DNA from: Candidatus Binataceae bacterium | Lineage (GTDB): Bacteria > Desulfobacterota > Binatia > Binatales > Binataceae | DNA length: 48,821 nt | Reading direction: 5' to 3' | Assembly (NCBI GenBank): GCA_036495685.1 | Contig: DASXMJ010000212.1 | Coordinates: forward strand, 1 to 48,821 | In this document: piece after piece, positions 4,193-8,080 of the stretch | Numbering within the stretch: the stretch's first letter is position 1 | How the letters are laid out: each line of letters starts with the position of its first letter | Notes under the pieces: model-generated | The model's input: the letters and a program-made list of their open reading frames with translations, nothing else | What the model was told of the DNA's origin: nothing | Databases searched by the model: none | Position numbers and translations under genes: made by a program

Positions 4193-5392
4193 ATGAAAGC
4201 TGACTCTCTGGTTATCGACTGCGATGGTCACATCCTGGAGCCGCCGGATCTGTGGGAGAAATACATCGACCCCAAGTATCGCGAGCGCGCGATGCGCATA
4301 CGGGTCGGAGACGACCGGTTTGAGTATCTGGAAATAGACGGGAAGCGCGCCAAGATGACTGCGCCCGGCCTCCTAGGCTCGTTGGGCGGCATGGGTAAGC
4401 GAGTCGAGGAAGCGAAGCGTTTGCGCGAAACGGCGATGCGTGGCGGCGCCACACGTCCGGAGGACGTGCGCGCGGTACAGCCCAAGCCCGAAGATACCTA
4501 TCTGAAAGGTGCAGCCTTCGGCACCATGGTTATGAAGGAACGCCTCCAGCTCCTCGACGAGGAAGGCATGCAGAAAGCGCTGCTCTACCCCACCATCGGG
4601 CTTCTCTGGGAAGCGGAATTGTTCGATGCCGAACTCTCAAGCGCCTATTGCCGCGCATACAATCGATGGATCGCAGACTTCTGCCGCGACTCCGGCGGAC
4701 GGCTCGTTCCGATCGCCCATCTGTCGCTGGGCGATCCTGCGGAAGCAGCCGGTGAACTTAGGCGAGCGGTTGAGGACGGATGCAAAGGGGCTTTCGTATG
4801 TCCATTCACCATCACCCGGATACCGCATGGCGACCCGGCTCACGATGCGGTGTTCGCGGCCGCGCAAGACCTCGACGTGCCGCTTGCGATTCATCCGACC
4901 TTCGAACCGGTAGCGTTCGGAATTCATCATCGTTACGACAATTTCCAATGGGCCGCGTGGTATTTCGATCTGTTTGCCGGGCAGGGCGTCCAGCATGCGT
5001 TCGGGACCTTCTTTCAGTTTGGCGTGTTCGATCGCTTTCCGAAGCTGCGCGTCATAGTGCTCGAATCGCAGGCAGGATGGATTGGATATTTTCTCGATCG
5101 CGGCGACGCGATCTTCAACGGCACGACCTTAGGGGCGACGGTGCGGCTTAAGGAAAAGCCGTCGTACTACTTCAAGCGGCAATGCTGGATCTCGGCCGAC
5201 CCAGACGAACGAACCATCGCGTCGCTGATGCCGCTCGTCGGTGAGGACAAGTTCTTCTGGGCAAGCGACTACCCGCATCCTGATCATCCTGGCAACTACC
5301 TCGAAGAACTGCAGGGAATGATCGCTTCGATGGCGGACTCGGGCAAACGTGCGGTCCTCGGCGAAAACGTGGCTAAGGTTTACCGCGTCTAA
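4193..5392 (+). CDS. Amidohydrolase-2 family metal-dependent hydrolase (ACMSD/LigW-like)
   Basis: A 399-residue TIM-barrel hydrolase of the PF04909 type. The N terminus VIDCDGHILEPPDLWEKYI carries the D-x-H-type metal motif and the EPPDLW common in this group; residues near the C terminus, FWASDYPHPD, carry the conserved metal-binding Asp. Members include 2-amino-3-carboxymuconate-semialdehyde decarboxylase and 5-carboxyvanillate decarboxylase; many others in soil bacteria are uncharacterised. I chose the ATG at 4193 because it begins the conserved domain and has GGAG a few bases upstream; an open frame extending 114 bases further overlaps the cyclase gene. It is probably co-transcribed with the cyclase. 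Decarboxylase or hydrolase activity cannot be decided here. Confidence 0.88.
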   Translation: MKADSLVIDCDGHILEPPDLWEKYIDPKYRERAMRIRVGDDRFEYLEIDGKRAKMTAPGLLGSLGGMGKRVEEAKRLRETAMRGGATRPEDVRAVQPKPEDTYLKGAAFGTMVMKERLQLLDEEGMQKALLYPTIGLLWEAELFDAELSSAYCRAYNRWIADFCRDSGGRLVPIAHLSLGDPAEAAGELRRAVEDGCKGAFVCPFTITRIPHGDPAHDAVFAAAQDLDVPLAIHPTFEPVAFGIHHRYDNFQWAAWYFDLFAGQGVQHAFGTFFQFGVFDRFPKLRVIVLESQAGWIGYFLDRGDAIFNGTTLGATVRLKEKPSYYFKRQCWISADPDERTIASLMPLVGEDKFFWASDYPHPDHPGNYLEELQGMIASMADSGKRAVLGENVAKVYRV

Positions 5393-5624
5393 GCCGCAGA
5401 CCTCGATTCCTCTCCTTCGGCATTAGCTGCGGCGCCTCGCACGCGCTGGTTTCGAAGGCCGAGGCGCGCCGCTCGCTGAGGGGTCGGAAGAATCCTGCGT
5501 TTCACGGAAATTCACCGAAGCTCGGTTTTCTCGCATCGCCGGGCACGCCCTCTTCCGGGCGGAGAGAGTTTACGACCGGACCGCCTCGCTGCAACCCGGT
5601 CGACCACTAGCGGCGGGTGGCGCG

Positions 5625-6779
5625 CTAGTTCTTGAGCCCGGGCACCATCGCTTCAATCTTGATGGGAATCTCAAACGAGACTTCCTGCGGCAGCTTGCAT
5701 ATGCTGTCGTTGCACTCCTGAAACCTGAAAGTGCCTGCGATCTTGCTGGTGCCGGGTTTCACCCTTCCACTGACTACAATGCTGCCTCTGCCCTGAAACG
5801 AGCCTTCATAAACCGGCAGAGTTTCGCCCAGCGCTTTGAATTCGAGCGGCACTGCAGGTGGCAAAGCGATGGATTGCTGCGCAACCACGTCGCCCGCGAA
5901 GATCAAACTCGTCGCCACATAGTTTTCTGGTAAGGGTTGGCCGTAGATGTGCCATCCGGGTGCGATCGCGATGTCCACCGCGACCCCCAGTTCCTGGCCG
6001 GGTGCAGCCTGAGCGCTCGACAGCGAGATTTTCGCCTGTACGTCTTCAGCGCCTATACTCACCGACGCCTGGTCTCCGACCACGTTGAAGTCGGCGAGCA
6101 GAATTCCCGATGCGGTCGGACGTGTCTGATAGTTGGGCAGGAAGTACTTGTCTTTCACCGTTCCGTCCGCGGCGAGCACATAGTCACCCGGGAACGGGAT
6201 GCCATAGAACATGTTGCCCTCGGGAATGTTGGTATTGAGAATCCCGAACTTTCGGATCACCGCGCTGCCCGGATCGGAGAGCAGCGGATAGCTTATCTGA
6301 TGCGCATCGGCAAATCGCTTGAGGGTGGCCTTTGAATCATAACTGACCGCGGCTACTCCCAGACCTGCCTTCTGCAAGGCTGGAGGTGACTGTTGCAGCT
6401 CGACGAGCTGGGTGCGGCAGAACGGTCACCAATCGGCGCTGCGGGTGAAAACCAGCAGCATTCCTTTGGGTCCCATCAGGTCGTGCAGAGTCAGCCGCCG
6501 CCCGCTTTGATCCTCGAGCGCGAAGTCCGGGACCTTGCTGCCGACGGCAGGGCCGGTCTTAAGATCGGCGTTTTGCAAATCGACGAATTTTTTGAATTCG
6601 GCGGGATCGATCTTTTCTCCCGATCCCATTTTTTTGAGAATGCCATTGATCAATTCTGTGTTGTCCATAGGCGTGTCCTCCTGAGCGGCCGACCCACGCG
6701 CCGCGCCACCGGGCATCAGCAACCACAGGCCGACTACCGTGGCGAAGACTATCTTTGCACACCAGAAAGATCGACGCAT
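5625..6779 (-). CDS. Predicted selenoprotein: secreted redoxin (UPFC motif) fused to a DsbD N-terminal-like domain
   Basis: Reading through one in-frame TGA at 6426-6428 gives a 384-residue protein. Residues 1-33 look like a signal peptide (basic MRRSFWCAK, then a hydrophobic stretch). Residues about 75-220 form an AhpC/TSA or Prx-like redoxin domain (GSKVPDFALEDQSGRRLTL, then LVFTRSADW-U-PFCRTQLVELQQ). The TGA replaces the first Cys of the usual SADWCPxC motif, giving UxxC. Residues about 235-384 resemble the nDsbD domain, with GWHIYGQPLP and the redox pair in ECNDSICKLPQ. Both halves are in the same frame and both match one family across the TGA, so a selenocysteine codon is more likely than a stop. 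A perfect stem-loop follows the UGA. Predicted role: periplasmic thiol-disulfide exchange or peroxide reduction. The alternative is a nonsense mutation or sequencing error at exactly the catalytic Cys. Confidence 0.82.
6396..6428 (-). promoter_or_regulatory. Candidate bacterial SECIS element after in-frame UGA
   Basis: The UGA occupies 6426-6428. On the coding strand 21 bases separate it from the apical loop of a perfect 6-bp hairpin, CAGCTC-GTC-GAGCTG (6396-6410, loop 6402-6404). An outer CTG/CAG pairing could extend it across an internal loop. The loop begins with G. Bacterial SECIS elements sit directly downstream of UGA, with the loop about 16-37 bases away and a G at the start of the loop, so position and shape fit. 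SelB binding is inferred; no sel genes are in the window. Confidence 0.65.
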
Positions 6780-6886
6780 GGTTCATCCAAACGCAAGATC
6801 GGCATCCGGATCGCAACTGCGAGCCGGTCGGAAAATCACAAAGGGCGGCCGCCATGCTTAAAGCAGCCGGCTGGAGCCTGGCCTAA

Positions 6887-8080
6887 CTACGGCAGCATGC
6901 CGGCCTGAATGACGGTTGACTCGGTCTGCGGCGGAAGGCGCGGCGGCTGCTTGCGCTTCATCGCCTTTTCCAGGATTGGGGCGAGCCGCTCGGACTTCTC
7001 CCTGGCGAGCTTTTCCTCGCGACTCTTGAAGTCAGGCAGAACCTTTTCCGCAAAAAGGTTGAGCGACGAACAGATGTCCTCGTGTTTATTGTTGCCGGCC
7101 TGGGAAATAAACACCACCTGATCGACGCCAACTTCTTCATATTCGTGCAGGCGTTTGCGGATGAAATCCGGCGTACCGACGCAGGCGTGGTCGCCGCCCG
7201 CTCCCGGAATATTGATCGGGTGGCGCCGGTAGTTCTGCCAGATGTTGGTCTTGCCGGGCTCGTGCCGGCCGAACACGTAGTGATGGCCGAGCGCGTAGGA
7301 GAAAAACTTGAGCCCGTCTTCGCCCATCGCCCGCGCCCGCTCCTGGTCAGGATCACACATGAAGCCGGTCACGATGGCGATGTTTGCATTGATCGCGTGG
7401 CCGATCGGCTCGCATTCATTTTCGAGCGTGGTGTAGTAGTCGTTGACCCACTGGCGCGCCTCGTCCGGCGTTACGAACGCAAAGGTCAGCGCGCCGATCC
7501 CGAGCTTGGCGGCGAGGTGGATGGTTTCGCGGCGTGAACATGCGACCCACAGCGGAGGATGGGGCTTCTGCACCGGCTTGGGCACCACGTTGCGCACCGG
7601 CATCTTGAAGTACTTGCCCTCGTGTCCGAGGAACGGATCTTCGACGAACATCCGTGCAATCGCGCCCAGCGACTCCTGCCACATGTCGCGCTTGTCCGCG
7701 CGCGGAATCAGGAAGCCGCCAAGTTCCGCTTCGGCCGAAGATTCCCCGGTCCCGAACTCGACGCGCCCGTTGCTGACCAGGTCCAGCGTGGCGATCCGCT
7801 CCGCGACTCGCGCTGGATGGTTATAGCTGGGGGGCAGCAATACGATTCCGTGCCCGAGCCGGATGCGCTTGGTGCGCTGACTGCACGCGGCGAGAAAGAT
7901 TTCCGGGGCGGATGAATGTGCATATTCCTCAAGAAAGTGATGCTCGACTTCCCACATGTGGTCGATGCCGAGTCGGTCGGCGAGCTCGACCTGGTCGAGC
8001 GCGTCCTGAAACAGTTTCAGTTCCTGGCCCGGCGTCCAGGGACGCGGCAGTTGATGCTCATAGAAGGTGCCGAATTTCAT
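6887..8080 (-). CDS. LLM class flavin-dependent oxidoreductase (bacterial luciferase-like)
   Basis: A 397-residue luciferase-like TIM-barrel monooxygenase. It starts MKFGTFYEHQLPRPW, the common beta-1 strand of the group, and carries DHMWEVEHHFLEEYAHSSAPE, LGHGIVLLPPSYNHPARVAERIATLDLVSNGRVEFG-type sequence in the middle (the conserved LLM core) and PHPPLWVACSRRETI. The family uses FMNH2 or F420H2 to oxidise aldehydes, ketones, sulfonates or similar compounds. The C-terminal 50 residues are Lys/Arg/Pro-rich and longer than usual. The TetR gene lies 32 bases upstream on the same strand, so the regulator and oxidoreductase may form one transcript controlled by the operator at 8812-8825. The substrate is unknown. 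Confidence 0.9.
   Translation of the reverse strand: MKFGTFYEHQLPRPWTPGQELKLFQDALDQVELADRLGIDHMWEVEHHFLEEYAHSSAPEIFLAACSQRTKRIRLGHGIVLLPPSYNHPARVAERIATLDLVSNGRVEFGTGESSAEAELGGFLIPRADKRDMWQESLGAIARMFVEDPFLGHEGKYFKMPVRNVVPKPVQKPHPPLWVACSRRETIHLAAKLGIGALTFAFVTPDEARQWVNDYYTTLENECEPIGHAINANIAIVTGFMCDPDQERARAMGEDGLKFFSYALGHHYVFGRHEPGKTNIWQNYRRHPINIPGAGGDHACVGTPDFIRKRLHEYEEVGVDQVVFISQAGNNKHEDICSSLNLFAEKVLPDFKSREEKLAREKSERLAPILEKAMKRKQPPRLPPQTESTVIQAGMLP

Follow-up and report, generated by a model that had tools for sequence, protein, structure and literature searches.

Within the window (the whole stretch of 48,821 nucleotides analysed here, which is contig C212 in a MAG of 4.69 Mb and 96% completeness) lies a gene that very probably encodes a selenoprotein, with selenocysteine (Sec) at the UxxC motif of a redoxin domain, and proposed to act as a selenol-disulfide oxidoreductase that relays to its own nDsbD domain. 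The components of this explanation differ in strength: insertion of Sec at the UGA appears almost certain from the sequence comparisons, while the function proposed for the protein is favoured by a small measure only.

The minus-strand frame from 6779 down to 5625 is open under table 11 apart from one TGA, at 6426–6428. Read as U, this codon gives a product of 384 residues from the ATG at 6779, including LLVFTRSADWUPFCRTQLVELQ, in which FTRSADW precedes the TGA and PFCRTQLVEL follows it. Pfam places an AhpC-TSA/Redoxin domain across the TGA (residues 79–210) and a DsbD_N domain after it (residues 257–369). A preliminary description had joined two apparent genes into one frame across this single TGA, with redoxin similarity before it and redoxin plus DsbD-N after, and had placed the TGA in the first-Cys column of SADWCPxC, giving UPFC. 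Re-reading of the frame agrees, as does the domain order, and rare homologues have Cys at exactly that position; the strand, left unstated there, is minus. The features of the locus are as follows.

5625..6668, minus strand: most likely coding sequence, a 347-residue selenoprotein (redoxin plus nDsbD-like), with ATG at 6666–6668 and stop TAG at 5625–5627; based on the AGGAGG Shine-Dalgarno, homologue starts and the ordered helices that the AF2 model shows at the N-terminus
5625..6779, minus strand: alternative longer coding sequence of 384 residues with a signal-peptide-like N-terminus, MRRSFWCAKIVFATVVGLWLLMPGGAARGSAAQ; its ribosome-binding site is weak
6677..6682, minus strand: Shine-Dalgarno AGGAGG, 8 nt upstream of the ATG at 6668, from the sequence
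6426..6428, minus strand: in-frame UGA, predicted Sec118 (Sec81 by the internal start), position 1 of the UPFC motif; from the frame and the homologue column
6417..6419, minus strand: Cys121, the Cys of the UxxC motif (second position), unchanged across 54 aligned homologues
6396..6410, minus strand: bSECIS apical hairpin CAGCUC-GUC-GAGCUG, its stem starting 15 nt and its loop 21 nt after the UGA; from folding, comparison and the constraints of PMC13188914
6150..6545, minus strand: AhpC-TSA / Redoxin domain (PF00578, PF08534), from Pfam, the fold backed by structure comparison
5673..6011, minus strand: DsbD_N domain (PF11412), from Pfam, found in 53 of 54 homologues
5697..5714, minus strand: invariant Cx4C pair of the nDsbD-like domain, QECNDSICKLP, Cys356 and Cys361, from alignment

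The two candidate start codons carry different implications for location. The ATG at 6779 opens a hydrophobic, signal-peptide-like N-terminus and has a poor Shine-Dalgarno; the ATG at 6668 lies 8 nt downstream of AGGAGG, corresponds to where most Binataceae homologues begin, themselves without a signal peptide, and yields none. In the AlphaFold (AF2) model (pLDDT 95.2, pTM 0.91) ordered helices begin at about residue 3 after the internal start, an arrangement that would fit either start if a signal peptide were cleaved nearby. Homologues from Acidobacteriota mostly begin with a signal-peptide-like stretch and those of the RSAVWUPPC group do not, suggesting that the family is probably spread over both compartments. 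The preliminary description had called the protein secreted. The upstream start does encode a signal-peptide-like N-terminus, but the favoured start lacks one, making secretion doubtful, and the evidence leans towards a cytosolic location for the window protein.

The TGA is conserved column by column across relatives. In a same-class sample of 148 genomes, 22 loci hold a homologue that is full-length and carries the active-site motif, and all 22 have TGA in the identical column at 34–59% identity, the window itself aside; their active sites read RSADWUP[YF]C, RSA[VI]WUPPC or RSANWUIYC. A scan of named genomes with the single window protein (Cys for Sec) returned no matches, its patterns being too specific. 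The same scan with an alignment query, the Sec column masked as X, found matches in Candidatus Binataceae, Bryobacterales and other Acidobacteriota, Acidimicrobiia, Chloroflexi, Alpha-, Gamma- and Deltaproteobacteria and Myxococcota, nearly all with TGA; a further 396 genomes from the phylum of one Acidobacteriota MAG (G531) added TGA copies and a few stop-free ones. Among all distinct sequences fetched, 85 have TGA and seven have Cys (TGC or TGT) in the column, a ratio that is not an unbiased census, the fetched loci being the best-ranked ones. Trp was never seen in the column among these loci; the rare alternative is Cys, and the Cys homologues are single uninterrupted proteins. On a tree built without that column, the Sec and Cys states require at least six changes. 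A Sec/Cys pair is the usual test for a selenoprotein in the field, and bacterial selenoproteins are marked by an in-frame UGA where homologues have Cys; both are found here, with Sec in the large majority.

Further observations belong beside these counts. In one Acidobacteriota genome (G652; L141 and contig C25) a TGA copy and a stop-free copy occur side by side in the gene complement. A second selenoprotein copy in another genome (G036:C48:56969-57679, L169) keeps the Sec UGA and the motif and has a frameshifted nDsbD half; it is a decaying paralogue, and a UxxU reading of its two TGAs was ruled out on that ground. Recoding of UAG in Acidobacteriota was likewise rejected, the apparent extra TAG and TAA stops being natural terminators in the loci read.

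Under table 11 the TGA does interrupt the frame, and a decayed second copy exists in G036; both speak for a nonsense mutation or a sequencing error followed by a dead downstream half. The same TGA is, however, shared by 85 distinct sequences, which come from independent assemblies and keep their downstream domains intact; it is followed by a covarying SECIS and occurs in genomes with selB. Conservation of the TGA column together with an intact downstream half refutes the pseudogene reading, to which only the slightest probability is given.

The machinery for decoding UGA as Sec is present in the host genome. The MAG has one tRNA-Sec, which scores 70 bits and exceeds the Rfam cut-off, with ARAGORN in agreement and the anticodon UCA, a selA scoring 584 bits, and selB and selD adjacent on contig C29; selA, selB, selC and selD thus occur together, as is required of a selenoprotein-making genome. 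In the host selD (contig C29, 8622–9548; L011, L170) too, a single in-frame TGA interrupts the gene, here at the catalytic position (AAGUAGKLGP), and a SECIS-like hairpin comes after it. This gene is a second selenoprotein of the host, beside selB, and an independent sign of working Sec decoding. A change of code or suppression, by which UGA would be read as Trp or another standard amino acid, would equally carry translation through the frame, a fact that is not specific to it. Against it stand the absence of Trp and the presence of Cys in the column among fetched loci, the tRNA-Sec, selA, selB and selD of the genome, the SECIS after the codon and the normal reading of the other window genes by table 11, which leave a standard amino acid at this codon exceedingly improbable.

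The gene also keeps company with Sec decoding genes across genomes. At a strict threshold tRNA-Sec was found in 107 of the 148 class genomes and in those of 19 of the 22 full-length loci; the other three (G051, G052 and G144) gave none at that threshold, and selB is present in all three. Among genomes tested directly, selB was found in 41 of 43 with the TGA gene, compared with three of nine with only a stop-free copy (p = 1e-4). Both TGA genomes in which no selB was found are from Acidobacteriota, where its absence plausibly reflects incomplete MAGs. One genome of the same genus (G034) has tRNA-Sec and selB and no detectable copy of the selenoprotein gene, suggesting that the gene is probably dispensable within the genus.

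Downstream of the UGA, the window RNA can form a hairpin with a 6-bp stem and a 3-nt GUC loop with G first, at a spacing of 21 nt and with an MFE of -16.4 kcal/mol. This satisfies all published constraints on the bSECIS: a loop of 3–9 nt, a stem of 4–16 bp, G in loop position 1 or 2, a spacing of 16–37 nt and an MFE of -7.5 kcal/mol or lower (PMC13188914). The window hairpin alone is not exceptional (dinucleotide-shuffle z of -1.2), so the case for a SECIS stands on comparative data. In 29 distinct sequences, 98.3% of the cells pair, against 8.6–46% when the partner is slid; 22 cells are double-changed, and covariation scores higher than in any of the 500 shuffles or any slid control. The stem shows compensatory changes that are synonymous, among them CAG...CTG to CAA...TTG and C-G to U-A, and its pairing exceeds that in 2000 shuffles exchanging only codons for the same amino acid. 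A longer stem around the UGA (GGUGAC/GUCACC), present in the MFE fold of the window, lacks conservation in relatives and was not used.

The hairpin follows the Sec state of the column. Every one of the 85 Sec genes has the loop G, and 83 of them preserve all five core pairs, as does only one of seven Cys genes (Fisher p = 2.7e-7, relatedness ignored); among six phylogenetically independent pairs, five point in the same direction and none in the opposite (p 0.06). In one genome without detectable selB (G829, L150), a Cys homologue retains an intact SECIS-like hairpin, which is probably the fossil of a recent conversion from Sec to Cys.

Two related genomes (G055 and G056; L043 and L046) have a stand-alone nDsbD-like protein with a signal peptide and no redoxin domain, apparently in the slot corresponding to window positions 5392–6887; a luciferase-like gene adjoins it in L046, and an amidohydrolase gene is found in both loci. 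This apparently records domain loss or gain at one locus. Such secreted proteins lend some plausibility to the idea that the window has two genes, a redoxin half ending at the UGA and an nDsbD protein with a start of its own. Neither half would then be a working enzyme, because the UGA falls at the active site, within the redoxin domain, and the conservation of the UGA and SECIS and the uninterrupted Cys versions also argue for a single product; two genes are accordingly judged very improbable.

The central claim of the preliminary description, that the gene encodes a selenoprotein which a pseudogene reading would lose although it is otherwise intact, is therefore borne out by the sel genes, the conserved TGA, the covarying SECIS and the Cys homologues. 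It had suggested looking for the sel genes, and tRNA-Sec, selA, selB and selD are all present; it had also suggested aligning homologues at the column, where Cys or Sec is found (85 TGA, seven Cys). Other stops and a decayed downstream half in close relatives, which it had named as evidence to the contrary, were not seen: the relatives keep the TGA, the intact downstream half and the covarying hairpin.

The protein combines two redox modules. Pfam matches AhpC-TSA in all 54 homologues and DsbD_N in 53, the window's own DsbD_N match scoring 31.7 bits against a cut-off of 25. Alignment of these homologues, down to 30% identity, reveals an invariant U/C81-x-x-C84 in the redoxin domain and an invariant C319-x4-C324 in nDsbD (internal-start numbering). 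Structure comparison of the redoxin domain places it closest to peroxiredoxins, namely BcpB (Z 22.4), AhpE (21.5) and Bcp/PrxQ, with Z of about 20–22, and also AhpC; this search mainly covered the redoxin part (residues 37–197), and the lack of nDsbD chains among its matches is uninformative. The active site differs from that of these neighbours. In sequence alignments Sec falls on the Thr/Ser of the peroxiredoxin motif PxxxT/SxxC (AhpE, Bcp) and on the first Cys of ResA WCPHC, and in one pairwise sequence alignment the peroxiredoxin catalytic Arg of 2cx3 stands opposite a near-invariant Pro. The protein has the peroxiredoxin fold but, by these alignments, neither the Thr/Ser three residues before a peroxidatic Cys in PxxxT(S)xxC nor the catalytic Arg. 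The CxxC with which the active-site helix of TlpA/ResA-type proteins begins is present as UxxC, invariant in the 54 homologues bar the exchange of Sec and Cys, and there is an nDsbD domain with a redox Cys pair as in DsbD.

A Sec-dependent peroxidase of the peroxiredoxin type must be weighed here, since the nearest folds are AhpE, PrxQ/Bcp and AhpC, the best profile matches include PrxQ, and peroxidases are common among selenoproteins. It is considered rather unlikely: Sec occupies the Thr position of PxxxTxxC and not that of the peroxidatic Cys, Pro fills the catalytic Arg column, and SelL-related and ResA models match about equally well. The replacement of the peroxiredoxin Thr and catalytic Arg suggests instead a disulfide oxidoreductase. 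On balance, though by no great distance, these sequence features favour a selenol-disulfide oxidoreductase of the thioredoxin/ResA type on a peroxiredoxin-like scaffold, with Sec as its attacking nucleophile and a relay to its own nDsbD.

In the selenol-disulfide oxidoreductase model, SelB, tRNA-Sec and the bSECIS 3' of the UGA would insert Sec at position 1 of UxxC, and translation would run on into the DsbD_N-like domain. Sec would attack a disulfide or other oxidised substrate, and Cys121 would resolve the product by forming a selenenyl-sulfide with Sec. Electrons could then be exchanged between the selenenyl-sulfide and the invariant Cx4C of the protein's own nDsbD domain, which would connect it to an electron source of the DsbD or thioredoxin type. 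In the DsbD pathway nDsbD exchanges electrons with partner proteins. The host genome encodes a complete DsbD on contig C11, which comprises an nDsbD (Cx4C) of its own along with the transmembrane and thioredoxin parts, so that a DsbD-type electron supply would be available if the protein were periplasmic. The gene neighbourhoods compared gave no conserved partner gene or hint of a substrate.

UxxC selenoproteins with AhpC-TSA or Redoxin domains have already been catalogued (PMC13188914, PMC9312934). Nearest in description is the 'Redoxin family protein' (PF08534, UxxC) of a 2026 catalogue (PMC13188914, refs 61/62), which shares the Redoxin domain and Sec in the first position of UxxC; its entry names no DsbD_N domain, and, compared by description, it may be identical to the window family. 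It is apparently the Prx-like 3 family of the GOS study (PMC2398784), which counted 68 Sec and 2,608 Cys members; the window family, by comparison, has Sec in 85 of the 92 distinct sequences fetched. As described there, a fusion of Prx-like 3 with Unknown_3 also pairs a UxxC Prx-like selenoprotein with a second domain bearing conserved Cys, and is set apart by three conserved Cys including a CxxC, where the window family has DsbD_N with Cx4C (PMC2398784). The Prx-like thiol:disulfide oxidoreductase (PF00578, UxxC/UxxU; for example in Geobacter) belongs to the same domain family and shares the redox motif, but the sources consulted mention no DsbD_N fusion for it.

Comparison with other redox families gives a similar picture of partial likeness. 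The SelL-related redox protein (NF040769) is also redoxin-like, and all 54 window-family members match its model weakly; at 52 bits against a cut-off of 120, the window protein is not a SelL-related member by NCBIfam's rule. In ResA/TlpA proteins WCxxC aligns with WUPFC, and Pro is found in the region of the thioredoxin cis-Pro, but the window protein has Sec for Cys and its nearest solved folds are peroxiredoxins. With nDsbD (PF11412) it shares the invariant Cys pair; unlike DsbD, it has neither transmembrane nor C-terminal thioredoxin domains among its Pfam matches, and its nDsbD is fused behind a Sec redoxin. No description of a redoxin–DsbD_N selenoprotein, or of the dominance of Sec, was found in the open-access literature, and no model in NCBIfam release 20.0 that matches the window protein reaches its cut-off. 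It is tentatively proposed, at slightly less than even confidence, that these proteins form a distinct, unnamed family of Redoxin(UxxC)–nDsbD(Cx4C) fusions in Binatota, Acidobacteriota, Chloroflexi, Proteobacteria and others, almost always with Sec, in which several reversions to Cys lost the SECIS and often selB, and in which nDsbD would recycle the selenenyl-sulfide in cis.

Gene calling by table 11 turns such genes into a truncated redoxin and a fragment, and, with no matching NCBIfam model reaching its cut-off, many genome annotations probably show this widespread redox enzyme of soil bacteria as a broken gene. The family has Sec in more than 90% of the distinct sequences fetched and, with several changes between Sec and Cys in which the SECIS and often selB were lost too, constitutes a natural experiment on the need for selenium, and the fusion of redoxin to nDsbD suggests an electron relay in cis.
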